Part shown: piece by piece, positions 20,881 through 62,538 of the stretch
Layout: the number at the start of each line of letters is the position of its first letter
How positions within the stretch are numbered: position 1 is the stretch's first letter
Virus record (IMG/VR): IMGVR_UViG_3300033153_002115
Span: 1 to 64,000 of that record
Length of the DNA: 64,000 nt
Origin: a virus
Reading direction: 5' to 3' (one strand)
Position numbers and translations under genes: made by a program
The notes under the pieces: generated by a model
What the model was told of the DNA's origin: nothing
The model's database searches: none
Seen by the model: the letters and a program-made list of their open reading frames with translations, nothing else

Positions 20881-23250
20881 ATGGCAACTCAAGGACATAT
20901 TCCTATAAGTTCGAATTTCGATAGAAGATCACCAATTCCTATGGATCCATCTTTGTACAGAGATGATGTAGCCGACAGGAATGCTATTCCAGTTTATCAA
21001 CGTTATCCTAATATGGTAATATTTATACTAAACAGTATAGTTAAATATCAGCTTGTATTAGGTACTGTAGATATGGATCTCATGAATGATAATAACTGGG
21101 TTGAGATTTTCGATAACATAAACCCTTCTGATTACTATACTAAACTAGAATTAGATGGGGGGCAACTGGATAATAGATATTATACAGAAACAGAAGTAGA
21201 CAGTTTATTAGATAATATAGATAGTTTTAAAATTCTATCTAATTCAGGTAATTCTTACGCTTCATTTGAACCTGATGGTACGAATGAATATATGGATGTT
21301 GTCGCTAACAATCTAACTGTAGCACAGTTTGGCGGATCAGGACATAGTAAATTAATATTAGACCCTAGCGGAATTTTTGGAAATACTACGGGTTTATGGT
21401 TTAGTAATAATGATATAGGGTTTTACAGAAGTGCAGCAAATTTTATATACGTTGTTGTCGGAGGATTAGAGCGTTGGGAATTTCGTACAGATAGATTTGA
21501 ATCTACTCAGTCTACTGGCCCTAGATTAAGTCTTTCAGGAGGAACCGCAACAGTACCTACTATAATACCAAAGAGTAACGATACAAATACTGGTATAGGT
21601 TCTGGGAATTCTGATACGCTTTCTCTTATTGCAGGAGGTATAGAAGGAATTAGAGTTAATAATCTTACTGCTCACTCTGTAGCAGGGATGACTAACTACG
21701 AAACATTAGTTATAGATGATGACGATATTCCAAATAAGAAATGGGTAGATGATAGATTTACTGCTTTTCTTCCTTATCAGCTATACCAACCTGATGGAAC
21801 CAACCCGTTTGTTTATACAGATAATGGTGGAAATCTACATGTAGACGGCCCTATTATTCAGTCAGGTCTTAATTACGAAATACATACAGAACAAGTATTT
21901 AGTGCATTAGATCTTATCATAACCAGAGATGGTGCTGTAGCTGGATTAGGTGCTGGGGAGTATACTGGTATTCAAGCCAGTTTATATGATGGCGCTAACG
22001 ACGGTCAATTGGTATTTGATAATGCCGGTGTAGCCCGCGTAGGTGATGTTGGAAGTTTACAACCTATTGCTACCAGAGAAGAGGCGCCTACTAATGGATA
22101 CTTTGCTAAATGGGTATCTGTTAATACCCGGTTTGAAACGGTTCAATTAGCTGTTAGTGATATATCAGATTTTGCTAATACTTTAGCAGGAACTAATAAT
22201 ACTGTAAGTTTTACTCCTACTGCAGATTACCATGTTTCACCTAAAAAATACGTAGATGATGCAATCAGTTCCTCAAGTTATTATACAACAGTTGGGTCTG
22301 GTGGTGATTATGCTACCGTACAATTAGCTCTTGCAGCAGGTAAATATGATTTAAAACTTATATCCGCTGTAACAGAAACTGTTAATTGGGGTGCTCATAC
22401 TAAAGATATTAATCTTTATGCAGAAGAACTAACAATTCTTAATGTTAGTGTTGCTAACACTTCAGATCTTATTATTAGGGCTACTAATATTAGTTTCAAT
22501 GTAAGCGGTACAAATTTAATATTTACTGGAACCTCTGAAATGTATTTTAAGTCTTGTGAAGTATTAGGAGATACTGCTTTTAATGATTTTAGAGGACATA
22601 TAAGTGGAGAAGATTTATACTTACAAATAGGATCTAATGGATTTAGAATTGATTTATATAATATTATAGGTTTAAATATTAATGGATTAGAATCTTCTGG
22701 GGGTGAAGCAATAGCTATAAGAATATTTGGTTCAGTTACTGCTGTAACTATGACAGGGCCTTTTGAATTGGGTATAGATTTGTTAGATGGTGTAATGCGT
22801 GATGTTGTAGGGGATAATCAATCTGGTATTAGGATAAGAGGAACAGTAGGAAGTTCTATTTATAATGCCAAAGGTATTCGTATATATATTAGAAATGATA
22901 CTTTATCTACTTTGGTAGATTGTGAGTTATGGCAATTACATACATATTCATTATCTTATGAAGCATTCAAGTTAGTAGATAACTGTATTATAGACGAAAT
23001 TCTAGCACCTTATGGTGGAGGTAATATTAATACTCTTTACGGTTTTAAAAATATAATAAATAGTACGTTTACTTTTGGTGATATTCATGTACTAGATGAT
23101 GAATTAACTTTGCAGAATTGTAAAGTAACAAATGGAACTATAGTAGTAGATGCAACAGCAGACAAAACCACTATTATAGGAGGTAGAACTGTATCATCTA
23201 TAACAGATAACGGTACAAACACAATACTTCTTGCTAATCAATTATTATAG
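20881..23250 (+). CDS. Tail fibre/spike with beta-helix region
   Basis: The 789-residue product has an N-terminal attachment domain (residues 1-75), then the fibre spacer YYTKLEL...NRYYTETEVD typical of phage tail fibres, a middle beta region, and from residue about 470 a parallel beta-helix-like repeat that begins TTVGSGGDYATVQLAL, common in pectate-lyase-type spikes. It probably binds or digests surface glycans. No catalytic residues are assigned. It ends in TAG. Confidence 0.75.
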   Translation: MATQGHIPISSNFDRRSPIPMDPSLYRDDVADRNAIPVYQRYPNMVIFILNSIVKYQLVLGTVDMDLMNDNNWVEIFDNINPSDYYTKLELDGGQLDNRYYTETEVDSLLDNIDSFKILSNSGNSYASFEPDGTNEYMDVVANNLTVAQFGGSGHSKLILDPSGIFGNTTGLWFSNNDIGFYRSAANFIYVVVGGLERWEFRTDRFESTQSTGPRLSLSGGTATVPTIIPKSNDTNTGIGSGNSDTLSLIAGGIEGIRVNNLTAHSVAGMTNYETLVIDDDDIPNKKWVDDRFTAFLPYQLYQPDGTNPFVYTDNGGNLHVDGPIIQSGLNYEIHTEQVFSALDLIITRDGAVAGLGAGEYTGIQASLYDGANDGQLVFDNAGVARVGDVGSLQPIATREEAPTNGYFAKWVSVNTRFETVQLAVSDISDFANTLAGTNNTVSFTPTADYHVSPKKYVDDAISSSSYYTTVGSGGDYATVQLALAAGKYDLKLISAVTETVNWGAHTKDINLYAEELTILNVSVANTSDLIIRATNISFNVSGTNLIFTGTSEMYFKSCEVLGDTAFNDFRGHISGEDLYLQIGSNGFRIDLYNIIGLNINGLESSGGEAIAIRIFGSVTAVTMTGPFELGIDLLDGVMRDVVGDNQSGIRIRGTVGSSIYNAKGIRIYIRNDTLSTLVDCELWQLHTYSLSYEAFKLVDNCIIDEILAPYGGGNINTLYGFKNIINSTFTFGDIHVLDDELTLQNCKVTNGTIVVDATADKTTIIGGRTVSSITDNGTNTILLANQLL

Positions 23251-23253
23251 AAC

Positions 23254-25128
23254 ATGGCTGAAATTAATAAAATACAAGGTCCTTTATACTTTCTGGATCC
23301 TGCTGTGTATATCGAGCAAGATGTCGGAGGTAATCTGGCTTTTACAGACGGAATTTCCGGTACTAAAACATTAGCAGATTTATTAAGTATATCTGGATTA
23401 TGGAGTCCTAATGGTGATGATATATATTACAGTGGAGGTAACGTTGGTATCGGTACAGATAGTCCTATTGACCTTACATCAGCATATATAACTTTAACTG
23501 TTGAAGGTCCTACCGGAGGTATTCTTCAAGCCATAAATCCAAGTGCAGTAAAGATAGGTGAATTATCTATAGATTATGTAGGTTCTAGAACTAACAACAA
23601 TTTCAATATTGTAGCTTACATGAGTACGATAGCTACATTCCAACCTAATGGAAATGTAGGAATTGGGACTGTTATTCCACAATCTAGATTAACGTTAAAA
23701 GGGGTTAGTATAGATTCAAACGCTTTTAGGTATAATGGAAGTACTTCAGATAATAGAGGGTTTGAAATAGGTTTTCTTGGAACAGACGATCTTCATATAA
23801 ACTTTAGTCGTAGATATTCTGATGTACCTTACTCTTTTATGTCTATAGACAGAAGTAACGGGTTCGTAGGACTAGGTAAAACAGCTCCAACAGAATTACT
23901 TCATTTATATAGCGCAACCGGCTCAACAGATATAGGACTTGAGGGAGGCGCAACTTCTGGACAAGGTTGGAGAATTAGAAATGACCAAGCTGCTAATAGA
24001 TTCGCAATTTCATCCGTAATTAGTAGTTTTGGTACTTTTACTGAAAGATTTTCAATATTGGCAGATGGTAATATAGGTATTGGAATTGCTAGTCCTGTAA
24101 AATTACTTCACGTTAGAGAGAACAGTTTAAGTTATAACGACACAGGAGCATACGCAAGATTTGAGAATACACTTGCACAACGTGGTATAGAATTGGGACA
24201 AACTAATGGTTTTCCTTATATTCAAGGGTATTATGATAATAAAACACAAACAAGAGATTTATTATTGCAACCAGAAGGGGGAAACGTTGGAATTGGAACT
24301 ACTAATCCTCAAGCACAAATGCACATTAGTTCTTCAGCTCCTACGTTAAGGTTATCAAATACAACTTTAAATCAAACTAACTCCGGGACTATTGAGTTTA
24401 GTGAAGTACCTAGTGACGTTAATGAACCTAGAGCAAAGATTTATTATGACGGTAACTCTAATATATTTCATATAGCTACAGGTAGCGGATCGCCTACTAA
24501 TAGAATAAGTATACCAAGAGATACAGGGAATGTAGGAATAGGAGGGGCTGCTCACGCTAGTTATCGTTTAGATGTAGAAGGTATTGCAGGAGGGCTTAAA
24601 GTCTATAATAGTTCGTCTACTACAAATAGTGCTAGTATAGAAGGGGTTCAAACTAGTGACTCGTATAATGTCTTGCAAGTATATTCAACTGGAAATAAGA
24701 GGTTTAGTGTAGGAGGTGCTGGTTTAATAACAGCTCCTGGTATCTATTCAAGAGTGGAAACTTCACGATCAGTGTATGTAGATTCAACAGGACAATTAGG
24801 TACTACTTCATCTTCCCGTAGATATAAAGAGAATATAAAAACATCTGCATTAAGTGATAATTATTGGAAATTAAGACCTGTTACATTTGATTTTAAAGAA
24901 GGTAAAGGAGATAACCAACATGGGTTTATTGCAGAAGATGTTGAAAAGTTATATCCTGAATACTGTGATTATTTAGGTGGAAAAGTAGATGCGGTATTAT
25001 ATCAACACTTTACTACTATCAACACTCTCGCTATACACGGGTTAAAGAAAACTATAGATATACAACAAAAAGAAATTAACAGTCTAAGATCAGAATTAGA
25101 GTTAATCAAAAAGCACTTAAATATATAA
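23254..25128 (+). CDS. Tail fibre with C-terminal S74 intramolecular chaperone (copy 1)
   Basis: The 624-residue product starts with an anchor nearly identical to that of the next gene (IQGPLYFLDPAVYIEQD). The shaft has repeats of the NVGIGT-x-x-P type. The C-terminus holds a peptidase S74 chaperone domain: SSRRYKENI near residue 527, then DFKEG, HGFIAEDVEKLYPE and a final coiled coil. S74 domains drive trimer folding and then cut themselves off at the conserved Ser. Confidence 0.85.
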   Translation: MAEINKIQGPLYFLDPAVYIEQDVGGNLAFTDGISGTKTLADLLSISGLWSPNGDDIYYSGGNVGIGTDSPIDLTSAYITLTVEGPTGGILQAINPSAVKIGELSIDYVGSRTNNNFNIVAYMSTIATFQPNGNVGIGTVIPQSRLTLKGVSIDSNAFRYNGSTSDNRGFEIGFLGTDDLHINFSRRYSDVPYSFMSIDRSNGFVGLGKTAPTELLHLYSATGSTDIGLEGGATSGQGWRIRNDQAANRFAISSVISSFGTFTERFSILADGNIGIGIASPVKLLHVRENSLSYNDTGAYARFENTLAQRGIELGQTNGFPYIQGYYDNKTQTRDLLLQPEGGNVGIGTTNPQAQMHISSSAPTLRLSNTTLNQTNSGTIEFSEVPSDVNEPRAKIYYDGNSNIFHIATGSGSPTNRISIPRDTGNVGIGGAAHASYRLDVEGIAGGLKVYNSSSTTNSASIEGVQTSDSYNVLQVYSTGNKRFSVGGAGLITAPGIYSRVETSRSVYVDSTGQLGTTSSSRRYKENIKTSALSDNYWKLRPVTFDFKEGKGDNQHGFIAEDVEKLYPEYCDYLGGKVDAVLYQHFTTINTLAIHGLKKTIDIQQKEINSLRSELELIKKHLNI

Positions 25129-25129
25129 G

Positions 25130-27157
25130 ATGTCTGAAAGAACTAAAATACAAGGCCCGATACAATTTTTGGATAGTGCTGTTTATATAGAGCAGGATGG
25201 TTCTGGTAATTTAGCTTTTACAGACGGTATAAGTGGAACTAAGACTTTAGCCGAGTTAATTGCTGCTGGAGCTAGTTATTGGACACAAGTAGGCTCAGAC
25301 ATATTTTACATTGCAGGGGATGTAATTCTAAGGGAAGATGATGATGGCAATGACGCTGTTAAACTATGGGCTACAGATACAAATGGTGGGATATCTATTA
25401 AAGATGGTGGTGTCACTGTAATAAATCTTAATGGTAACGGTATTACTTATTTTAATGGTGGAGATGTTGGAATAGGGATTTCTGCTCCCACTGCAAAATT
25501 ACATCTTAGTGATTCAACTGGTTTACAACTTAGGTTGGATGCTGGTAGTGCTACTAATCATTGGAGTTTAGGAAGAGATCAAGCTACAGGAAATTTTCAT
25601 ATTGATGATGATTCATTAGGTACTGTATTTACAATTGATCAAGTTACAGGAAAAATGGGTATAGGTGAAACTTCCCCCTCACAAAGATTAGAAATAGTAC
25701 AGTTAGATAATACTGTTCAAGGAGGTCTTGCTGTTAGAGATGCAGTTACTACTGCTAGAATATTTATATGGGTAGATAGTAATGGAATAAGAAGAATTGA
25801 TGCTGCTTCGACTGGAGGTTCAGATTTAGCTATAAATGGAGAAGGTACTGGGTTTGTAGGGATAGGTACTATTACTCCAGGTGTAGCATTAGATGTTATA
25901 GGAACAGTTTCAGGAACAACACTTAAATCAACGGGACAAACTAATTCAATATTTGGTGCACCTGCAACTAATAATAAAGCAAAATTAGAATTAAATGTAT
26001 CAAACGCAGGTAGTGCACAAATCGGATTTAGTGATTATGGTGATATGTCTTGGGCAATTGGTGGAGATGATGCTGATAATTCATTTAAAATACATGGTAC
26101 TGCATCAAGTACAATACCAACAATTAATGGTCTAGCTACCCCCTGGTTTGAGATTACAACAGCAGGTGCAGTAATTATACAAAAAACACTTACATCTGCA
26201 CTAGCGACAGGTACTGCACCTTTTGTAGTAGCAAGTACAACTAAAGTAACGAATTTAAATGCTGATACAGTAGATGGTGTTAGTTCAGGAAGTTTTGTAA
26301 GAAGTGATACTACTGATTCTATTAGCGGTGCATTAACACATACATCTAATTACTATCGTTTCAATGATAACATAGAGTTGTATTTCGGTACATCTACATC
26401 ACAATCAACTATATATTCTGATGGAACCAATACCAGATGGAAATTATTATCTGGTGATTTTTTTATGATGGATAATGGAACTAATAGACTTCGTTATTAT
26501 AGAGCATCGGGTGATTTTTACATATACCTTGGTAAAATTAGAAGAGCTGTTACTGAAACAGGTTATTTAGTAGGTAGCTATAATGTATCATCTACACAGG
26601 CAGCTACAGGTCCTATTTATGTAATGGGTACTAGTTATTATCCTGCATCTACTACTCTTGGAAATATGTACGGGATTGGGTATGGGCATGGAAATGCAAC
26701 ATTTCTTAATTCTACCGATTTAGGCTCAACTCCAGGTAGTTGGGGTATGTATGTTGCTGCAGACGGTAATGCCCGTATATTTTTAGAAGGAACAAGTGGC
26801 AGTGGAAGATTTAAAGGTATAGTGTACGCAGCAGATCACGCTTTAAACTCAGATCTACGGTTAAAAGAAAATGTTGTACCTTTAGGGGGAAGTATTGACG
26901 AACTAATCCCGGTTAGTTATAATTTAATATCTCAACCAGGGAATACACAGTATGGCTTCATTGCTCAAGATATGTTAGAGACACATTCTGAATTAGTAAT
27001 GGGAACCGGAAAAGAGGATGAAAATGGTAGTATTGATTATTATTCTATTAAACAGAATAGTATCATCGCTTTATTAGTTAAAGAAGTACAGAAGTTAAAG
27101 AAAGAAAACGTAAATTTGGAATCTAGATTAACACGAATTGAAAAATTATTATTATAA
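25130..27157 (+). CDS. Tail fibre with C-terminal S74 intramolecular chaperone (copy 2)
   Basis: The 675-residue product shares the N-terminal anchor of the preceding fibre (IQGPIQFLDSAVYIEQD and NLAFTDGISGTKTLAEL) but diverges in the shaft, which has repeats such as KMGIGETSP and FVGIGT. The C-terminus has the S74 signature SDLRLKENV, QYGFIAQDM and a Lys-rich coiled coil. Two fibres on one anchor suggest two receptor specificities. It overlaps the next gene as TAATG. Confidence 0.85.
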   Translation: MSERTKIQGPIQFLDSAVYIEQDGSGNLAFTDGISGTKTLAELIAAGASYWTQVGSDIFYIAGDVILREDDDGNDAVKLWATDTNGGISIKDGGVTVINLNGNGITYFNGGDVGIGISAPTAKLHLSDSTGLQLRLDAGSATNHWSLGRDQATGNFHIDDDSLGTVFTIDQVTGKMGIGETSPSQRLEIVQLDNTVQGGLAVRDAVTTARIFIWVDSNGIRRIDAASTGGSDLAINGEGTGFVGIGTITPGVALDVIGTVSGTTLKSTGQTNSIFGAPATNNKAKLELNVSNAGSAQIGFSDYGDMSWAIGGDDADNSFKIHGTASSTIPTINGLATPWFEITTAGAVIIQKTLTSALATGTAPFVVASTTKVTNLNADTVDGVSSGSFVRSDTTDSISGALTHTSNYYRFNDNIELYFGTSTSQSTIYSDGTNTRWKLLSGDFFMMDNGTNRLRYYRASGDFYIYLGKIRRAVTETGYLVGSYNVSSTQAATGPIYVMGTSYYPASTTLGNMYGIGYGHGNATFLNSTDLGSTPGSWGMYVAADGNARIFLEGTSGSGRFKGIVYAADHALNSDLRLKENVVPLGGSIDELIPVSYNLISQPGNTQYGFIAQDMLETHSELVMGTGKEDENGSIDYYSIKQNSIIALLVKEVQKLKKENVNLESRLTRIEKLLL

Positions 27158-29608: not shown

Positions 29609-30301
29609 ATGAAAACTATAAACGATATTATCTTCAGAGTATATAGAAACCCTATATTACAAAATGTTAGTAAAAGTGATATAGTTACTCATGTTAAAGA
29701 AGTTATGGGTCTACTTGATGTACCTGCAGCCATGGAAGAAAAACGGATTGTACTTAATGTATTAAATTATAGAGTTGTTGTACCTTCAGATTTACATATA
29801 ATCAAAGCTGTATCAGCACTCGACTTTAATAGTAGGGAAGTGCGTCTTCATCATTCAAGTGATGATAGAATTCTACATCAACATGAACGTAGGGATCCTC
29901 AACCTTCTACTGTAACTTATAAACATGTCCCGGGGTTTATTTATACAGATTTCGAATCAGGAGATATCGAAGTAATTTATACAGCTTTCTCTACAGACCC
30001 GGACGGTTTTCCTTTAATACCTGACGAGCCTTCATTAATGATTGCTATAGAAAATTATATTAAAGTACAACACTTCACGATACTTGCAGATATGGGTATG
30101 GTAACTGAACAAACACTACATAGAGCTGAAACACAATACGCGTGGTCTATAGGACAAGCATCTAATAAATTTACGATACCTACACCAGAAGAAGCAGAAA
30201 CTTTATTTAATGCTATCGCCAGGTTATTACCGGATAGGCAAGCTATCGATACTAATTTTAAATATAATGCTGTTCCTCAAAATTTAAGAAACCATGATTA
30301 A
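29609..30301 (+). CDS. Tail adaptor / tail tubular protein A-like (P22 gp4/T7 gp11 type)
   Basis: The 230-residue product has a C-terminal helical pair (residues about 140-185) with HFTILADMGMVTEQTLHRAETQYAWSIG split by a turn, a hallmark of phage tail adaptors. It is followed directly by the muzzle gene, the usual order in crAss-like phages. It would connect the portal to the tail. Confidence 0.6.
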   Translation: MKTINDIIFRVYRNPILQNVSKSDIVTHVKEVMGLLDVPAAMEEKRIVLNVLNYRVVVPSDLHIIKAVSALDFNSREVRLHHSSDDRILHQHERRDPQPSTVTYKHVPGFIYTDFESGDIEVIYTAFSTDPDGFPLIPDEPSLMIAIENYIKVQHFTILADMGMVTEQTLHRAETQYAWSIGQASNKFTIPTPEEAETLFNAIARLLPDRQAIDTNFKYNAVPQNLRNHD

Positions 30302-33300
30302 GAAAGAAAGGTATGTTGCAACACACTTAGATACTGATAGTGCTCCAGATAAACGGGACACTACTTCTTACTATGCTGCTTACAATTTAGAGGTTGTAAA
30401 CAACGGGAGACTATTATCTATTAATCCTACTAAAACTAAAGGGGTATTCGACTCAGGTACTGATTTCGGTGTTCTAGTAGGTGATGTTGTTATAGATAAG
30501 GTTCTTTATTTATTTGAATTTAAAAGTGGAGAACCATACCCGGATTCTATATACAGTGTAACTACAGAGGCAGTTATCGCTAAAGTTGTATCTTCTAATT
30601 ACGGATGGGATGCAGATACCCAACTAGATGTCGTAGGTAACAGAGAGAATGAAAATATTATAAAAGTGTATTGGGCTGATAGCGTAAATCAGCTTAGGGC
30701 TCTTAATGTAGTAGATGCACCATATGCTGATGGAACAATTGCAGATATAGTATTACCTGTAAGTCTTTCTAAACCAACAACAGAGACTATACAAGGTGGG
30801 AATCTAATAGCAGGTAAAGTACAATATGCTTATTCTTTATTTAATTTACATGGAGTAGAAAGCGTAATAAGTAATCTATCTCAACCTTTATCTATATCCT
30901 ATGATATGGTAGGGGGAGAAAGTGGTGAAGTTATGCCCCTATCCGCAGAAGTTACTATTGATGCAATTGACACTACTTTTGAATATATTCGTGTTTATTC
31001 TATACATTATCAAGAAGCTAATCAAATACCAAAGATTACTCTTATATATGAAACTAAAATAGCTGGAACTTCTTTAACTATTACAGATGATGGTAATTTA
31101 TTTATAAGTGAATTAAGTTACGAACAATTTGTATTTTTAGGTGGTGTGTTAATTATACCTAAAACTATAGCATCTAAAGATAACAGGTTATTTGCTGCTA
31201 ACTATAAAACTACTAATTTCGATATAGATAATACTATACCATTAGATTGTAGGGTATTTGGTTTTGGTATAGCAGTAATAGAGCATGATCAAGAACTTTG
31301 GTCGAATGAAATAGCACAGCCTTTATTACCTGTAGAAGTTATTAACACTCCCCTTATAAATAGTCCAGAAGATTATGCTTTTGCACAAAATGTACATTCT
31401 TTGGCTAATGTTTATACAAATAGAGAATATGCTATAATTTCAGGAGGAACTGCAGAGACTACTTGGGCTTTAGCCGGGGCTACTTTACCCGGTACTAGTC
31501 CTGTAACAGATCCAATAACAGGTTCAGGCGGTACAGGATTATATGTTGTTAATATAGATTTTGATGTTTATAAAAACGGAGGGACGTCTGTTACTGCATC
31601 TCTTATTGTTGAGACTTCTTTAGTGGGGGTAGTACAAGAAGTGATTACTAACAGTATAGGCGGGGTGTATTCAGTAACAACTCATGAAGATCACGATTTC
31701 GAAATCATTTTAACATTACCTTTTGACAGTATTAAAACAACTGTAACTAATAGTGATACAGCTAATTTTAATGTAACCGGTAATTCTTGGGGATACAAAC
31801 AAGTAGAATGGGAAGCTTTAAAAAGTGTCCCTATAGCTGATCCTGGTGATGTAGGTGTATGGGAAGATTACGATATAAGCGACGTAGAACATGGAGGTGT
31901 TAACACTTGAGATATCTGAGGTAATTACTACACTCCAGATACTGTACAATTCAATAGTAGCACCAAACTGGCTACATTTGTATTTTATACTAATCCCGGG
32001 GTACTTGTCCCAGGGAGTACTTACAGTGGAACTGCAGAAGTAAATACAGAAGGTATTATAGCGGATGGAGGAAGTAGAACCCATATAAATGATTCTACAG
32101 ACGTTAGAGCTAATATAGATTTAACCTCGTTACCAGGAGCTTATAAAGAATATACTGTATTAGCAGCAGCAGCTTCTGGGACAGCAGATTTTGTAATGAC
32201 AGCTTATTCTCACGCAATAAGTAGTTCTTCATTTGCTGTAGGTACAGAAGTATTAAGTATCTTTTGTGATGCAATACCTTTAACTGGATCTATACCTGCC
32301 GGCACTTACCCTAATGGGGTTAATGTAACTGCATTGACATCCAATGGTACTAAAACTCCAGTAGATAGTGCGGGTTCAGAATTAAGAGTAAAAACTATTG
32401 CAGATGTAGAAACAGTTTACGCTACTCCTGCTGACGTACCTTTAACGCATGATGCAATAAACCCTGACTACGATGTTTATAATTTACAGAGTGATGTTAG
32501 TACAGTTGGATATGAAGGGACTAACTTTGCTTTAAGTTTTTCTACTAATACTTCTGTAGATAAAAACACTAGATCATTAAAACAAGGAGAAGTGTACAGA
32601 ATCGGACTAGTATACTATGATGAGTATATGCAACGTACTCCTGCTAAATGGATGTGCGATATTAAAATACCTCGTTTTACTCCTAGTACAGCAGTATTTT
32701 TAGATTGTGAATTTACAGGTAATGCTGCTATATTCCAAGCAGAAGGTGTCGTATCTTTCCAATTAGTGATAGTTAAGAGAGAACCTAAAGATCGTTCTGT
32801 ATCAGCGCCTGGATTTATAGTACCAGGAGTTGAATATGAATGGAGCGATACTGCGGAGCCTGCCACAGGATATGTACATCCCTATTACACTTTAAAAAGA
32901 ATGATTAATTTTACTGACGGTGGAGATATTTATGAGGATTATACTATAGATTATGATTTTCCTGATCCTGCGGATGTAGTAGCTAATGCTCCTCCAACTA
33001 AACGTGATGATGTACAGTTTTTTTATTCTTCTGATACAGCTTTTATAGCAGAAGAGCTATATACAGTTACTGCTATACGAATATTAGGTACTGCTATAGG
33101 TGGAGTTCCTTTTGTTAATGGTGAAACTAAAACTACATACTTTGAAGATGGAGGAGTAGACGAACAACGTATATTTGCAGATATAGAATACCAAGGATAT
33201 GATGTAGACACTTCTAAAATGCCAGAACATTATATGGGTATTAATCCTAATGTTGATAGTGCGGGTTATATCCCGGCATTCGAAGCAGTAATGGTACATA

Positions 33301-34979
33301 AGTTTTTTAGTTTCGAAGTATGGAATGACACTACTTTAGGGGAAGAGCCTGTAAGAAGCTGTATCAGTACAATATTAAGGGCTTTAGAAAGTAATTCTAA
33401 GGATACTAAAGTATCAAATAATATACATGTTTCGGGTTTAGTTAACAAGCACGATACAGCGATGGCTAATAAGTTCAAAACTAGTTATAATGCGGGATTT
33501 ACTGATAGTGTAGCTATAACATTTACAGATCCTAATTGGCATGTTAACCCTAATAGTAGTGGGGATTATTCTATGTTTAAAGATAAAAGTGTTCTAGGAT
33601 TAACTGTACGTTTACCTATTATTGAATTACTAAGAAATCTAGTTAATCAATATGGGGGTGCAACTTATGAGGATAAGCAAAGAAACTCTTATTTATTAAA
33701 CGGTAATATTATACCCATTACAAACGGAAGTGTTAACACTCATACACTTGGTGATGTATATATAGGACCTTTAATTATAAATAGATCTGATGGACAAAAT
33801 ACACAACAAAGAGGTTTTTGGAATTTATATGAATATGTTTATATTGAAGGATTAGAGCATAACGTTGATGTGTATTCAAGGTATGATGAAATGTACAATT
33901 GGGGTCAGGGGTTGGACACTTCTACTTTATATGGTTTATATAGACTAGAAGATAACCATAAACTTCTAGGTGCTTATAATCAACAAAACGATTTAATTTT
34001 AGGTATAGCTAAACCTGCTACTTTTAGTGTAGTAGAAACTTTTAATGTTAGTATTGTAGCAAGTAAACAAAAATTCCCTAATGAGATTATAGATTCATGG
34101 ACAGACTTCCTTATTAATGATGTTATGGATTTAGATGGAATTTACGGTAGTATTACAAAGATATATAATTTCACTAATGAAATATTTGCATTTCAATCTC
34201 GTGGAGTTTCAGGTATTACTATAAACCCTAGAATACAAATACAGGCAGATGATGGAGTAGGTGTCGAACTTGGGACGGGGACTGTTTTATATAGTTACAA
34301 ATATCTTACAACAAAATCAGGTACAGAACAATTATGGTCAGTAACTGATGATGGAACTGCGGTATTTTATTATGACGATGTGGCACAAAGTATTAATGTC
34401 CATACTGGGGAAGAACTAAGCACAGTTAAAAAGATACGTAACTTAATGAAAGGTATAACACCTGGTAATACTGTTCGTAGTGTTTATGATATAGATAAAC
34501 AAGATGTGTTGTTTGTATTCGAAAGTACCTCTATTGTTTATAATAAATATATTGGAGAGTTTACAAGAATAGAAGATACTCATAATTATATCCATATATT
34601 TGATAATAAAGTATTCTCTCTTGTTAATGATAATCTAAATGAACATTATACTGGAACTGATTATAATCCAATGTATATCACTTATATGTTCGCTCCGATG
34701 CCTACCATGGATAAGGTGTTTCATAATATAGAATACCGTAAAATAGGGGATAATAACTTTAATTATATTAAAGCAGAAGATACTATTAATAGGACTGGAA
34801 TTATTAACGATCCGGTTATAAGTAATAAATTTAATATAAACAGAATTCATATACCAAGGATAGATAATGAGATAGAACGTTTTAGAGATGTAAATATTTT
34901 ATTAACTTTACAGTGTCCTCAAAGTGCAGATCTTATGTCTGTAGATGATATGGTATTAATGTATAATATAAAAGGGTAA
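30294..34979 (+). CDS. Tail muzzle/stabilisation protein, interrupted by two in-frame TGA codons
   Basis: One reading frame of 1562 codons runs from the ATG at 30294 to TAA at 34979 except for TGA at codons 539 (31908-31910) and 542 (31917-31919). The 285 nt between the first TGA and the next in-frame ATG at 32196 remain open after the second TGA and encode protein-like sequence (GNYYTPDTVQF onward). Read as Trp the region gives T-W-D-I-W-G-N-Y-Y, which is natural. Position after the tail adaptor and size match the crAss-like stabilisation or muzzle protein. Alternatives are sequencing error, a recently mutated gene or two separate polypeptides. Confidence 0.7.
31908..31919 (+). other. Tandem in-frame TGA codons (candidate UGA readthrough or recoding site)
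   Basis: The bases read tga-gat-atc-tga-ggt in the muzzle frame. Both codons differ from TGG (Trp) by a single G-to-A change. No ATG restarts translation for 277 nt downstream of the second codon. Other late genes contain no such in-frame TGA. Confidence 0.7.
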
Positions 34980-34983
34980 TACT

Positions 34984-36480
34984 ATGGCTAGATTAAAAAG
35001 AAAAAGTAAAGTTAATCCCTATTCTCTGGGAGGTATAGCAATGAGTGCCGGTGCTGGAGTCGCTGGAGGAGCTGCCGGAGGTCCAGTAGGAATGATTGCA
35101 GGTGGAGCTATAGGTTTAGCTAAAGGGATATTCGGACATGTAGCTGAAGAAAAAGCTGCAGAAGTAGCAGCAATACAAGAAAACTTAGCACAAGTAGCAG
35201 CAACACAAACTAAATTATCTAGTATGACAAGTAAAGGAGGTAAATTGCTTAATGCAGCAGGACAAGAGATAAACCCGTTTAATAAGAATGCCTATGGAGG
35301 TTTCAATAAAACCAGAGACCTTGAAGAGTATAATGTTGGAGGTTCCCATGAACAGAACCCTAACGGTGGTATCCAAGTTGGTATAGGTGAGAATGGGAAG
35401 CCTAATACTGTAGAAGAAGGTGAAGCTGCTTTTGATGATTTTGTATATTCTAATAGGATACCTTACCAAAAAACAGACACTTTACCGGGATTTGTTAAAG
35501 GGGATACTGTTGCAGATGCAGCTAAATCTATCAAGAAAGCTTTTGCCAATAGAAATGATAAGTATTCTAAAGATACAGAAAAAGAACTGTATGGGCGTCT
35601 TGCTAAATGGCAAGAACAACGTAAACAAGAAATGGATATAGGACAAAAAGAGGATACTTTACAAGGACAAAACCAATTTACTGGAGGGGGTTTTCCAGAA
35701 AGTGTATTTAACTTTGATAAAGATGCAATAGGAAATACAGCTTTTCCAGAAAATAAGTTCATCACACCTGAAGGCGTGCCAGGTATAAGAGAAAGTATGG
35801 CTGCGAATACAGCAGTAACTGAAGGAGTAACTGAAGAAGGTTCTACAAAAGATCAAACTTGGCTTGAAAGAAATAAGGATACATTACAAACCGGAGCTTT
35901 AATAGTAGGAGTAGGGTCTCAATTAGCAGGAGTGGCGTCTAATATAAGGGCGAAGAATAGACTTGAAAAATCACCGCCAGTTGTAGCAGAGACTTTAGAC
36001 CCGAATCAAATAAGTCCTCATTTAGTCAATAAAGGAGAAATTCTGACTCAAATAGGTAGAGGACAACAATCCGCTATTAATGCTTTAGGAGCCAGAGCTA
36101 GTGGAAACTTTGGGGCTTTTGCTGCAAATGTGGCTGGTATACAAGGTAAAACAGCCGAAGCTACTTCTACAGCAATGCTACAAGCAGAACAGATGGATGC
36201 CGCAGAGTTAGCTAGAGTTGAAGAATCACGAGCAGGTATTAATCAGTTCAATGCGAAAATGCGAATGGCGGCAACAGAAGCTACTGCACAAGATACTGCT
36301 GCTTATGAAGGACAAAGAGGAAGATACGAAAGAGATACAGTAAGGAATATAGGCTCTCTTGGACAGAGTTTAATTAATTACGTAACAGGTACAAAATTTG
36401 CTGAGTACGAAGGAAAAGCCGCAGAAGCAGAAGCTTTAAGTGAAGACCCTTACAGATATTCAAAAAGAAGAAATAGTTAA
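34984..36480 (+). CDS. Virion/cargo-associated protein with Gly-rich N-terminus
   Basis: The 498-residue product begins with a Gly/Ala-rich hydrophobic segment (residues about 15-50), then a motif GGSHEQNPNGGIQVG near residue 118 and a following VEEGEAAFDDFVYSNR segment, recalled from crAss-like cargo-neighbour proteins. The C-terminal half is helical and Ala/Gln-rich. The hydrophobic N-terminus might insert in a membrane during ejection; this is inference. Confidence 0.55.
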   Translation: MARLKRKSKVNPYSLGGIAMSAGAGVAGGAAGGPVGMIAGGAIGLAKGIFGHVAEEKAAEVAAIQENLAQVAATQTKLSSMTSKGGKLLNAAGQEINPFNKNAYGGFNKTRDLEEYNVGGSHEQNPNGGIQVGIGENGKPNTVEEGEAAFDDFVYSNRIPYQKTDTLPGFVKGDTVADAAKSIKKAFANRNDKYSKDTEKELYGRLAKWQEQRKQEMDIGQKEDTLQGQNQFTGGGFPESVFNFDKDAIGNTAFPENKFITPEGVPGIRESMAANTAVTEGVTEEGSTKDQTWLERNKDTLQTGALIVGVGSQLAGVASNIRAKNRLEKSPPVVAETLDPNQISPHLVNKGEILTQIGRGQQSAINALGARASGNFGAFAANVAGIQGKTAEATSTAMLQAEQMDAAELARVEESRAGINQFNAKMRMAATEATAQDTAAYEGQRGRYERDTVRNIGSLGQSLINYVTGTKFAEYEGKAAEAEALSEDPYRYSKRRNS

Positions 36481-60006: not shown

Positions 60007-60008
60007 GA

Positions 60009-60093
60009 AGAGAGGATGGGATTCGAACCCACGGAGCTTTTACACCCTCTGATTTAGCAAACCAGTGCAATAGACCAACTCTGCCACCTCTCT
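60009..60093 (-). tRNA. tRNA-Ser(GCU)
   Basis: The acceptor stem AGAGAGG/CCTCTCT closes perfectly. The anticodon stem-loop CTGGT-TTGCTAA-ATCAG gives GCU, and a long variable arm is present as expected for serine. CCA is not encoded. Confidence 0.9.
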
Positions 60094-60099
60094 TTATGA

Positions 60100-60169
60100 G
60101 ATGCCGGTCAGGATCGAACTGACGAACGGAGCTTTGCAGGCAACTACCTTACCACTCGGTTACAGCATC
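60100..60169 (-). tRNA. tRNA-Cys(GCA)
   Basis: Acceptor GATGCTG pairs with CGGCATC. The loop CTGCAAA carries anticodon GCA. Only three of five anticodon-stem pairs form, so the gene may be partly degraded. Confidence 0.75.
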
Positions 60170-60173
60170 ATGC

Positions 60174-60244
60174 ACAGGGAGTAGGATTCGAACCTACAAA
60201 CTACGCTTTTGGAGAACGCTTGCCACACCTATAACTGCCCCTGT
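60174..60244 (-). tRNA. tRNA-Trp(CCA)
   Basis: Acceptor ACAGGGG pairs with TCCCTGT and the anticodon loop CTCCAAA gives CCA, reading UGG only. The D-arm is short. No UCA form for UGA was found, which matters for the TGA codons in the muzzle gene. Confidence 0.88.
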
Positions 60245-60248
60245 ATTG

Positions 60249-60329
60249 TGCCTCACGAAGAATCGAACTTCCTAGTCATTAGACACCAGATTTACAGTCT
60301 GGTCCTGATCCCACTCAGCAGACTCGGCA
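60249..60329 (-). tRNA. tRNA-Tyr(GUA)
   Basis: The anticodon arm CCAGA-CTGTAAA-TCTGG gives GUA. A long variable arm is present, as in bacterial tyrosine tRNA. The acceptor stem has four good pairs and mismatches inside. Confidence 0.82.
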
Positions 60330-60334
60330 TTAGA

Positions 60335-60418
60335 GGAAAGTGTGGGATTCCAACCCACAAGACTTTGACATCCTACTGGTTTTCAAGACCAGGCCCTCGT
60401 GCACCACGGACACTTTCC
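60335..60418 (-). tRNA. tRNA-Ser(UGA)
   Basis: The acceptor stem GGAAAGT/ACTTTCC is perfect. The loop CTTGAAA gives anticodon UGA for UCA codons, with a long variable arm. The T-loop reads TTGGAAT instead of TTCGAAT, replacing the conserved C56. Confidence 0.88.
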
Positions 60419-60424
60419 TTATGT

Positions 60425-60496
60425 GGAATCAGATAGACTCGAACTACCGTCTCAAGATCTTCAATCTCGTGCTATTGCCTCCTCAGCTATGATTCC
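60425..60496 (-). tRNA. tRNA-Phe(GAA)
   Basis: The acceptor stem GGAATCA/TGATTCC is perfect, and the anticodon arm CGAGA-TTGAAGA-TCTTG gives GAA. Confidence 0.9.
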
Positions 60497-60502
60497 ATTA
60501 GT

Positions 60503-60576
60503 GCGGAAAGAGAGACTCGAACTCTCAGAACTCTGGAGCCTAAATCCAGCGACTTTACCTATTTGCCCACTCCCGC
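60503..60576 (-). tRNA. tRNA-Leu(UAG) with short variable arm
   Basis: The anticodon arm CTGGA-TTTAGGC-TCCAG gives UAG, which reads CUA. The variable loop has only about six nucleotides, whereas leucine tRNA normally has a long arm. The acceptor GCGGGAG pairs with TTTCCGC with two G-U pairs. Confidence 0.8.
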
Positions 60577-60582
60577 ATTTTG

Positions 60583-60670
60583 TGCACCTGGTGAGAGTCG
60601 AACTCACAAGACCATCACTGATCACTGGGGCTTAAACCCAGCGCGTTTCTCCAGTTTCGCCACAGACGCA
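60583..60670 (-). tRNA. tRNA-Leu(UAA)
   Basis: The anticodon arm CTGGG-TTTAAGC-CCCAG gives UAA for UUA codons. The variable arm is long, as expected. Acceptor TGCGTCT pairs with AGGTGCA. Confidence 0.9.
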
Positions 60671-60681
60671 TATAAACCAGA

Positions 60682-60709
60682 AAGACCCTACTCGTTAAAG
60701 TAAGGTCTT
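60682..60709 (-). terminator. Hairpin (AAGAC-type) upstream of tRNA-Leu(UAA)
   Basis: On the reverse strand AAGACCTTAC pairs with GTAGGGTCTT over 10 bp around an 8-nt loop. Only a short T-rich stretch follows. Its outer sequence matches the hairpin at 62546-62579. It may be a terminator, attenuator or processing signal. Confidence 0.5.
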
Positions 60710-60747
60710 AGTACTATATTGTATTATTTATATAGCTATCCTAATCC

Positions 60748-60761
60748 CTTACCGAAGTAAG
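60748..60761 (-). other. UUCG tetraloop hairpin in tRNA leader region
   Basis: On the reverse strand CTTAC-TTCG-GTAAG forms a 5-bp stem with a classic UUCG tetraloop, a very stable RNA element. It lies downstream of the 60811-60837 terminator. Confidence 0.5.
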
Positions 60762-60782
60762 CAGCGACCAGAAACTAAATAA

Positions 60783-60810
60783 ATAACATGTTGTTTTCAT
60801 AAAATGTTAT
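60783..60810 (-). repeat. Inverted repeat in tRNA leader region
   Basis: ATAACAT and ATGTTAT form a perfect 7-bp inverted repeat with a 14-nt loop on either strand. It lies between the candidate terminator and the UUCG hairpin. A role is unknown. Confidence 0.45.
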
Positions 60811-60837
60811 ATTAAAACCGGTTAAATTAATAACCGG
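60811..60837 (-). terminator. Intrinsic terminator of candidate leader RNA
   Basis: On the reverse strand CCGGTTA pairs perfectly with TAACCGG around a 6-nt loop and is followed by TTTTAAT. It ends a possible transcript starting at the promoter at 60911-60942. Confidence 0.6.
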
Positions 60838-60904
60838 CCTTTACAATTTAAAGTGTCAATCAGGTTTTGCACCCCTGTTTTACATGACAAACTCGTTGTT
60901 TTTG
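60811..60904 (-). ncRNA. Candidate small structured RNA in tRNA array
   Basis: A reverse-strand consensus promoter (60911-60942) and a terminator (60811-60837) delimit about 94 nt. Inside, TGTCA and TGACA can form an outer stem around an inner CAGG/CCTG stem. There is no tRNA cloverleaf or reading frame. Expression is not shown. Confidence 0.45.
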
Positions 60905-60910
60905 CGGTAA

Positions 60911-60942
60911 CAAATATACACCTTATATATTATACAACCAAA
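60911..60942 (-). promoter_or_regulatory. Consensus Bacteroidota promoter within the tRNA array
   Basis: On the reverse strand TTTG, exactly 20 nt, then TATATTTG gives a full match to TTTG-N19-21-TAnnTTTG. It is the best promoter in the window and points at the left tRNA group (60670 to 60009). Confidence 0.75.
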
Positions 60943-60947
60943 TAAAA

Positions 60948-61022
60948 GTTACCCCGGCTGGATTCGAACCAGAATTACAAGGCTCAAAACCTTGTGTGCT
61001 TGCCGTTTACACTACAGGGCAA
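60948..61022 (-). tRNA. tRNA-Gln(UUG)
   Basis: The anticodon arm CAAGG-TTTTGAG-CCTTG gives UUG. The acceptor TTGCCCT pairs with GGGGTAA with two G-U pairs. The gene lies just upstream of the internal promoter. Confidence 0.88.
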
Positions 61023-61027
61023 TATGA

Positions 61028-61099
61028 GAAGGTGAAAGGAATCGAACCTTCAACCTCCGAATTCGTAGTCCGGGGCTCATCCATTTGAGCTACACCTCC
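61028..61099 (-). tRNA. tRNA-Arg(ACG)
   Basis: Acceptor GGAGGTG pairs with CACCTTC, and the anticodon arm CCGGA-CTACGAA-TTCGG gives ACG, likely edited to ICG by host enzyme. Confidence 0.9.
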
Positions 61100-61105
61100 A
61101 TTAGT

Positions 61106-61177
61106 GATGCCTCTGGGTTTCGAACCCAGGCTCTTCGCATTAAAAGTGCGAGGCTTTACCAACTAAGCTAAGACACC
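61106..61177 (-). tRNA. tRNA-Lys(UUU)
   Basis: The anticodon arm TCGCA-CTTTTAA-TGCGA gives UUU. The acceptor GGTGTCT pairs with AGGCATC. The 117 nt further right (61178-61294) hold no tRNA but contain the inverted repeat GATAAA/TTTATC. Confidence 0.9.
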
Positions 61178-61294
61178 TGATAAATAGAATATCTATACTC
61201 CTTTATCGGTGCGGCCAGTTCTCCGTACATCTCTACGACCTCCAAGCCTCTTGAATTAACACTATACATAACATTTAATTTTAATTAATACTAG
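61178..61294 (-). other. Non-tRNA spacer with inverted repeats
   Basis: No cloverleaf, promoter box or reading frame is apparent. GATAAA and TTTATC flank an inner TAGAATATCTA palindrome at 61179-61206, and CGTA/TACG forms a small hairpin further right. It may be a leader or processing element of tRNA-Lys. Confidence 0.35.
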
Positions 61295-61370
61295 TACTGC
61301 CAACGAGGCTCGAACTCGCATCTTCCAGGATGAAAACCTGACGTCCTACTCCATTTAGACTACAGCAGCA
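61295..61370 (-). tRNA. tRNA-Glu(UUC)
   Basis: The anticodon arm TCAGG-TTTTCAT-CCTGG gives UUC. Acceptor TGCTGCT pairs with GGCAGTA. Confidence 0.88.
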
Positions 61371-61381
61371 TATAATTTAGA

Positions 61382-61452
61382 ACCCCTACCGAGAGTCGAA
61401 CTCAGGACTTGGGTTTAGAAGACCCACGCTTTTCCAGTTAAGCTATAAGGGT
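61382..61452 (-). tRNA. tRNA-Arg(UCU)
   Basis: The anticodon arm TGGGT-CTTCTAA-ACCCA gives UCU for AGA codons, which are frequent in this AT-rich DNA. Acceptor ACCCTTA pairs with TAGGGGT. Confidence 0.9.
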
Positions 61453-61458
61453 ACCTGT

Positions 61459-61531
61459 AGGGATGGCAGGAATTGAACCGACGCTCTCCCGGATATCAGC
61501 CGGGCACTTTAACCAACTAAGCTACACCCCC
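61459..61531 (-). tRNA. tRNA-Ile(GAU)
   Basis: The anticodon arm CCCGG-CTGATAT-CCGGG is perfect and gives GAU. Acceptor GGGGGTG pairs with CATCCCT. Confidence 0.92.
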
Positions 61532-61537
61532 ATATGT

Positions 61538-61612
61538 TGACCTGGGCGGATTCGAACCGACGACTTCTTCCTTGTAAGGGAAGCACTCTGAACCAGACTG
61601 AGTTACAGATCA
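61538..61612 (-). tRNA. tRNA-Val(UAC)
   Basis: The anticodon arm CTTCC-CTTACAA-GGAAG gives UAC. Acceptor TGATCTG pairs with CAGGTCA. Confidence 0.92.
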
Positions 61613-61617
61613 ATTTG

Positions 61618-61692
61618 CGGACTGGTAAAGATTCGAACTTTACATACTTTCTGATATTCATCAGATTTTCTTTCCCGTTAATTTACAGCCCA
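61618..61692 (-). tRNA. tRNA-like gene with six-nucleotide anticodon loop, identity undetermined
   Basis: Acceptor TGGGCTG pairs with CAGTCCG and the T-arm is standard, so the body is a tRNA. The anticodon hairpin is TCTGA-TGAATA-TCAGA: five pairs but only six loop bases. Placing U33 at the first loop base would give GAA, but this is uncertain. It may be inactive, or decode in an unusual way. Confidence 0.6.
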
Positions 61693-61699
61693 ATATAGC

Positions 61700-61774
61700 G
61701 GTCCCGGAGGGTATCGAACCCTCGTTTTTCTAGCGTGACAGGCTAGATCCCCGGCCATTGGGGCTCACGAAACC
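61700..61774 (-). tRNA. tRNA-Asp(GUC)
   Basis: The anticodon arm CTAGC-CTGTCAC-GCTAG is perfect and gives GUC. Acceptor GGTTTCG pairs with CGGGACC. Confidence 0.92.
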
Positions 61775-61779
61775 ATTGT

Positions 61780-61852
61780 GGGCAATGCTGGATTTGAACC
61801 AACGACCTTCTCCTTATGAGGGAGCTGCTCTACCTGACTAAGCTAAAAGCCC
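61780..61852 (-). tRNA. tRNA-Met(CAU), copy 1
   Basis: The loop CTCATAA gives CAU. The acceptor GGGCTTT/ATTGCCC has two mismatches next to the T-stem. It could be an elongator Met or an Ile tRNA with lysidine at C34; sequence alone does not decide. Confidence 0.82.
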
Positions 61853-61858
61853 AAAAGT

Positions 61859-61932
61859 TGCGGGAGTGAGAATCGAACTCACGTTAATCTTGCTTATGAG
61901 ACAAGGCTGGAACCCCTCCAGACCACCCCGCA
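61859..61932 (-). tRNA. tRNA-Met(CAU), copy 2
   Basis: The anticodon arm CTTGT-CTCATAA-GCAAG gives CAU. Acceptor TGCGGGG pairs with TCCCGCA including the first pair, so the unpaired first position of initiator tRNA is absent. One of the two CAU genes may be the AUA-reading Ile tRNA. Confidence 0.85.
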
Positions 61933-61935
61933 ATA

Positions 61936-62035
61936 TAAGATCAGGTGTCGCACCTAAAGACTTACTTAAATCCAGCTCGGAACTGCAATCTATTTATCTT
62001 AGCGATACAAGGGAATCGAACCCTTCACCTAATGA
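61936..62035 (-). pseudogene. Degenerate tRNA remnants
   Basis: A complete T-arm (AAGGG-TTCGATT-CCCTT) at about 62006-62022 has no matching 5' half because tRNA-Thr begins right beside it. Next to it a 66-nt cloverleaf-like piece (TAAGATA/ATCTTA ends, TTAGG-TGCGACA-CCTGA T-arm) lacks a proper anticodon loop. These look like decayed tRNA genes. Confidence 0.5.
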
Positions 62036-62107
62036 GCCTCCGACAGGAATCGAACCTGTTATCCTCTGATTACAAATCAGTAGCTTCGCCAGCAAAGCTT
62101 AAGAGGC
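62036..62107 (-). tRNA. tRNA-Thr(UGU)
   Basis: The loop TTTGTAA gives UGU with a four-pair CTGA/TCAG stem. Acceptor GCCTCTT pairs with CGGAGGC except for the last pair. Confidence 0.85.
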
Positions 62108-62157
62108 ATAATTGGTCGGTGTTTTTATACAGGTACCAACCAAGAGCCTGTCTTCGA

Positions 62158-62230
62158 GCGAGTAGACGGGATCAAACCGACTCTAATCCTGGTTGGAAGC
62201 CAGGTGCACCATCATTTATGCGTTACTCGC
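62158..62230 (-). tRNA. tRNA-Gly(UCC)
   Basis: The acceptor stem GCGAGTA/TACTCGC is perfect. The anticodon arm CCTGG-CTTCCAA-CCAGG gives UCC. The T-stem has one mismatch and the T-loop reads TTTGATC. Confidence 0.88.
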
Positions 62231-62236
62231 TTATGC

Positions 62237-62307
62237 GGAATGAGATGGATTCGAACCAACGTACATCTGCTTAACAGGCAGGCGCTAAGCCGCTTAGCTA
62301 TCATTCC
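62237..62307 (-). tRNA. tRNA-Asn(GUU)
   Basis: The acceptor stem GGAATGA/TCATTCC is perfect. The loop CTGTTAA gives GUU with a CTGC/GCAG stem. Confidence 0.92.
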
Positions 62308-62311
62308 TTAG

Positions 62312-62384
62312 TGGAGCCGAAGTGAATCGAACACTCGTAACTCTGCTTGCAAGGCAAAGCTTCTAACCAACAAGACCAACCCCA
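62312..62384 (-). tRNA. tRNA-Ala(UGC)
   Basis: The anticodon arm TTTGC-CTTGCAA-GCAGA gives UGC. Acceptor TGGGGTT pairs with GGCTCCA; the G3-U70 identity pair is not clear because several G-U pairs are present. Confidence 0.87.
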
Positions 62385-62388
62385 TTGG

Positions 62389-62461
62389 GTGTATGATGAG
62401 ACTCGAACTCACTTCAACTGGAACCACAATCCAGCCCCTCGGCCACTTCGGGATCATACAC
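62389..62461 (-). tRNA. tRNA-His(GUG)
   Basis: The acceptor stem GTGTATG/CATACAC is perfect. The anticodon arm CTGGA-TTGTGGT-TCCAG gives GUG. Confidence 0.92.
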
Positions 62462-62463
62462 AG

Positions 62464-62538
62464 TAGGGTGAGTCAGATTCGAACTGACGGACCGGTGATT
62501 CCAAATCACCGTAGTATAGCCTCTGCAATACCACCCTA
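62464..62538 (-). tRNA. tRNA-Pro(UGG), first gene of array
   Basis: The acceptor stem TAGGGTG/CACCCTA is perfect. The anticodon arm GGTGA-TTTGGAA-TCACC gives UGG. It lies 8 nt after a strong terminator. Confidence 0.93.

Follow-up and report, generated by a model that had tools for sequence, protein, structure and literature searches.

The coat gene of the RNA phage Q-beta contains a single UGA that is read by tRNA-Trp, yielding a minor extended coat protein from the abundant short one. TGA recoding is known in the order of the crassviruses, including in the muzzle gene of the Lera phage (PMC12386605), and in bacteria tRNA-Trp(CCA) reads UGA once its 27-43 pair opens (PMC13092985). Length variation in the muzzle has itself been described, with insertions in the IG2 domain as a source (PMC10172136). 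Here we describe a crassvirus muzzle gene that carries a large lineage-specific insertion and, within it, two in-frame TGA codons. The window analysed is a stretch of 64,000 nucleotides, positions 1 to 64,000 of IMG/VR virus record IMGVR_UViG_3300033153_002115. The parent record has 98,468 bases and looks complete, since its first 114 bases are identical to its last 114.

The muzzle frame and its insertion

The gene had been called a muzzle from sequence alone, and profile searches agree, with matches to Pfam crAss_MUZ (E = 1.9e-128) and crAss_MUZ_C (E = 5.1e-08; families PF25731 and PF25729) and a match of the protein to crAss001 gp44 (PDB 7qok, E = 1.2e-48). It lies in the gene order usual for crassviruses, namely ring 2, ring 1, muzzle and cargo 1 (Table 1). 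The same reading had found the frame open except at codons 539 and 542; these two TGAs, nine bases apart, are indeed its only stops, a whole-record search returned the muzzle match as containing '2 TGA', and the parts before and after the stops each retain clear muzzle homology.

Table 1 Features of the muzzle locus and the tRNA-Trp gene (window positions)
Feature	Position	Strand	Basis
Ring protein 1 gene, upstream of muzzle	29609..30301	+	Pfam CrAss_Ring_1, E = 1.3e-40
Muzzle gene frame, 1,561 codons, broken only by TGA	30294..34979	+	Pfam crAss_MUZ and crAss_MUZ_C; crAss001 gp44
Lineage-specific insertion holding both TGAs, residues about 323-718	31260..32447	+	Comparison with relatives
In-frame TGA no. 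1, codon 539	31908..31910	+	
In-frame TGA no. 2, codon 542	31917..31919	+	
Coding-like stretch of 92 codons from second TGA to next ATG	31920..32195	+	0.835 bits per codon in frame, negative off-frame
First in-frame ATG past the stops, poor start context	32196..32198	+	Context score -10.7
Cargo protein 1 gene, downstream of muzzle	34984..36480	+	Pfam crAss_CARG1, E = 2.3e-24
Only tRNA-Trp, anticodon CCA, G-U pairs 27-43 and 30-40 in the anticodon stem	60172..60244	-	

Coding signal runs through the stops. Codon scores trained on 15 late genes (late-gene mean 0.77 bits per codon, s.d. 0.15) were 0.87 in frame for residues 370-538, 0.835 for residues 543-634 and 0.96 for residues 635-735; across the TGA site the two other frames scored negative, and frame 0 showed neither decay nor a sustained change of frame. 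The protein-like sequence noted past the second TGA is therefore real coding signal by this measure, and 30294-34979 is one gene frame and not a chance opening. The first ATG, GTG or TTG after the second TGA lies 276 nt downstream (ATG 32196) and no further in-frame start candidate follows until residue 760. Its context score falls below those of all 70 real starts and within the lowest 14% of internal ATGs; an internal start there was rejected on this score, leaving no usable one, and the codon is probably an internal methionine.

Comparison with 80 related loci, fetched with a muzzle alignment, places both TGAs in a segment that the closest relatives do not have. The muzzles of these two (L007 and L008) are 69% identical to the one described here in the N-terminal part and 60-61% in the C-terminal part, comprise 1,204 uninterrupted residues, and lack the TGAs together with the entire segment that holds them. 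The spacing between the RVF and HDAIN motifs is 396 residues here versus 35 in both, making the insertion about 360 residues longer than the corresponding segment, and two anchor motifs stand 458 residues apart versus 53-156 in the 31 other loci where both were found. The matching site falls between gp44 residues 315 and 359, where the IG2 domain begins. Homologues of the insertion were not found in phage records, viral contigs, Pfam, PHROGs or the PDB, and the fetched loci matched it at its C-terminal edge only; a beta-galactosidase match (E = 0.18) was dismissed as chance level. The inserted segment is probably surface-exposed, and AlphaFold2 run on it alone in single-sequence mode gave no usable model (pLDDT 32).

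The muzzle is a single standard-code frame in 67 of the fetched loci, a few of which are duplicate contigs. Three other crAss-like contigs (L074, L075 and L078) have muzzles with many TGA or TAG breaks that become a single frame under a recoded table, with 14 TGA and 8 TGG codons in L074, 17 TAG in L075 and 30 TAG in L078. When 39 proteins from relatives were mapped on the record, no gene apart from the muzzle proved to be broken, nor was a frameshift detected in any of the others, so general poor sequence quality is not the explanation.

Two further observations concern insertions and shared segments among these phages. A more distant relative (L090, 4005-8207) carries a different, glycine-rich muzzle insertion near residues 110-325, and in this lineage the muzzle seems open to foreign segments at several positions. 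A 1,108-residue protein of L008 (201-3527) matches pieces of three separate tail genes in the window (20881-27157), which suggests a mosaic of shared tail-fibre segments.

Genetic code and tRNA complement

Outside the muzzle pair, the phage uses the standard code. The earlier statement that other late genes have no in-frame TGA was upheld by counts, with 84 TGG and 0 TGA among the 11,968 codons of the 15 main late genes; of all 112 late tryptophan-type codons, 110 are TGG and the remaining two are the muzzle TGAs. TGA is also in use as a terminator, ending 15 of 85 ORFs of at least 80 residues genome-wide (one is the muzzle fragment itself, leaving 14 others). ARAGORN confirmed that the sole tRNA-Trp has a CCA anticodon, no tRNA with a UCA anticodon was detected in the array by ARAGORN or Rfam or in the rest of the record by ARAGORN, and a release-factor gene was not found.

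The reading in which TGA stands for tryptophan in late genes (code 4), through a hidden or host suppressor, has the precedents within the order in its favour, as well as the absence of TGA among the stops of 24 late genes (nominal P = 0.005). Scarcity of late TGA stops is, however, also frequent in standard-code relatives (phi14:2 uses TGA as a late stop in 1 of 27 cases), and was rejected as a sign of recoding for that reason. Against this reading stand the missing UCA tRNA and the codon counts: if TGA were as frequent as in the recoded L074 muzzle, 0 TGA in 84 late tryptophan codons would arise with a probability of about 1e-37, and at the share of the muzzle studied here (2 in 17) with one of 3e-5. 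General TGA recoding was thus rejected on codon counts, on the lack of a detected suppressor tRNA and on the contrast with L074, and the code 4 reading is nearly refuted and scarcely credible. A lineage in the course of losing recoding, which had been offered as an option, also fails, given that the nearest relatives have no in-frame TGA, a suppressor tRNA was not found, and the 110 other late tryptophan codons are all TGG.

The tRNA array (60007-62537, minus strand) contains 22 tRNAs called by ARAGORN, which called none in the rest of the genome, and two matches made by Rfam only, a Gly tRNA (TCC, 62157-62230) and a weak Tyr tRNA (GTA, 60250-60328), whose identities were read by eye. The array appears to serve all 20 amino acids. 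A tRNA-like sequence missed by ARAGORN (61620-61692, minus strand) has good acceptor, T and anticodon stems and a 6-nt anticodon loop (TGAATA), and is either a pseudogene or an unusual tRNA. We note that in the Cellulophaga phage phi14:2 (L087, 4031-4500) ARAGORN called a candidate tmRNA with the tag GSSVQKLAMVA.

Readings of the TGA pair

From sequence alone, both TGAs had been judged to fit tryptophan, and this judgement is not borne out. No homologue of the insertion covers the site, so the alignment with the muzzles of relatives offers no aligned residue at 539 or 542 from which tryptophan could be read. Among the one-step ancestors of TGA, weighted by the codon frequencies of this genome, tryptophan accounts for a minority of 7-21%. 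Among the 112 late tryptophan-type codons, 1 of 6,216 pairs lies within three codons, and it is the TGA pair itself, a figure to be taken as a guide and not as a formal P value since the test was framed after the pair had been seen. The lone close pair and the minority tryptophan ancestry together weaken the idea of tryptophan codons that drifted under relaxed use of TGA; one local event accounts for the pair better than two independent drifts would.

On balance, we consider it somewhat more likely than not that the gene is a full-length muzzle gene of a standard-code phage and that its assembled copy records a recent local paired nonsense change, a haplotype in the minority, or a fault of local assembly or sequencing. 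The option of two changes in the sequenced copy, already listed in the sequence-only reading, thus emerges as the best one, given the undamaged frame and the standard code elsewhere. On this view an ordinary crassvirus muzzle gene has acquired, where its IG2 region begins, a large insertion specific to the lineage, and one recent local event would have placed two nonsense codons inside that insertion in the assembled copy, whether by paired mutation in the sampled genome, by entry of a minority haplotype into the consensus, or because assembly or sequencing went wrong locally where the sequence varies. Copies without the stops would supply the functional muzzle. The frame is coding-like on both sides of the TGAs, the muzzle is intact in L007 and L008, and the 67 single-frame loci point the same way. 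An undamaged frame downstream speaks against the gene having been lost long ago, and we infer a recent change, with intact copies present in the population. Against a local event, it is unlikely that two random changes would produce a pair of stops and no other alteration, and neither an intact copy nor another strain of the same phage was found in the collections searched, which may omit such records.

The main rival is leaky read-through. UGA read-through that makes a short and a long protein had been among the options listed from sequence alone; a functional short form is unlikely because codons 1-538 do not include the C-terminal muzzle region (residues 1110-1531), and in crAss001 that region completes the same beta-propeller (PMC10172136). 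Leaky read-through would have the near-cognate tRNA-Trp(CCA) of the phage, with its weak anticodon stem, reading both UGAs part of the time and giving a little of the full-length protein, each virion having one hexamer of muzzle. The downstream frame, kept without a usable start, is consistent with this, as is a phage-borne tRNA-Trp with G-U at 27-43, where an open pair permits UGA reading (PMC13092985). A G-U wobble still differs from an open pair, however, and loose construction is seen in other tRNAs of the array as well. The loss at one UGA would be compounded at the second, RNA structure past the stops is not beyond chance, and none of the 15 main late genes has another internal UGA. We regard leaky read-through as possible but doubtful. 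A stronger version, to which we attach still less belief, is that the muzzle, an essential tail-tip protein, is made solely by reading through the two close UGAs with the help of the loosened-stem tRNA-Trp(CCA), its output being held down or coupled to how much Trp-tRNA is supplied late; the phage would then be an intermediate on the way from the standard code to complete TGA recoding. Searches for other mechanisms at the site gave no tRNA-Sec above the Rfam cut-off for selenocysteine, no unusual RNA structure after the stops that could act as a stimulating hairpin, no Rfam intron match in the window for a self-splicing intron, and neither a reverse transcriptase nor a template repeat for a diversity-generating retroelement.

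Two further readings fare worse. In a split muzzle, chains of residues 1-538 and 635-1561 would assemble together, and it suits this reading that both parts have clear muzzle homology and that the break falls in the inserted, probably surface-exposed segment. The second chain would nevertheless have to begin at ATG 32196, with its poor start context, the 92 codons ahead of that ATG look fully coding, and every other traversable muzzle is a single frame under the standard or a recoded table; a split muzzle is accordingly very unlikely. Slightly less credible again are paired indel errors around the TGAs that create a short out-of-frame stretch. Frame +1 is open at the site and approaches frame 0 in a single window of 12 codons (6.8 versus 8.4 for frame 0 at codons 534-545), yet frame 0 is best in all windows tested and frameshifts were not found in other genes, and paired indels were disfavoured on this basis.

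Implications and comparison with known systems

If the TGAs are fixed and read, the phage would mark the onset of stop-codon reassignment, tried out in one gene. Should they not be, the case shows that a lone metagenomic gene with an in-frame TGA is not evidence of recoding, and which checks of other late genes separate recoding from a TGA confined to one gene.

The TGA-recoded crAss-like phages, represented by the Lera phage and L074, likewise have in-frame TGA in the muzzle gene. In those phages, however, many late genes contain TGA; the Lera phage has it in 41 ORFs and also carries a UCA tRNA (PMC12386605), whereas the phage described here has its two TGAs in a single gene and a UCA tRNA was not found. 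With crAss001 gp44 (PDB 7qok, 7qol and 8ckb), the muzzle described here shares the N- and C-terminal sequence match and the gene order, and it differs in carrying an insertion for which no homologue was found and two in-frame TGAs. Q-beta, too, uses the standard code, and in its coat gene, likewise a structural one, a long open frame comes after the UGA; here, by contrast, there are two UGAs, and the short form of the muzzle would be without most of its fold.
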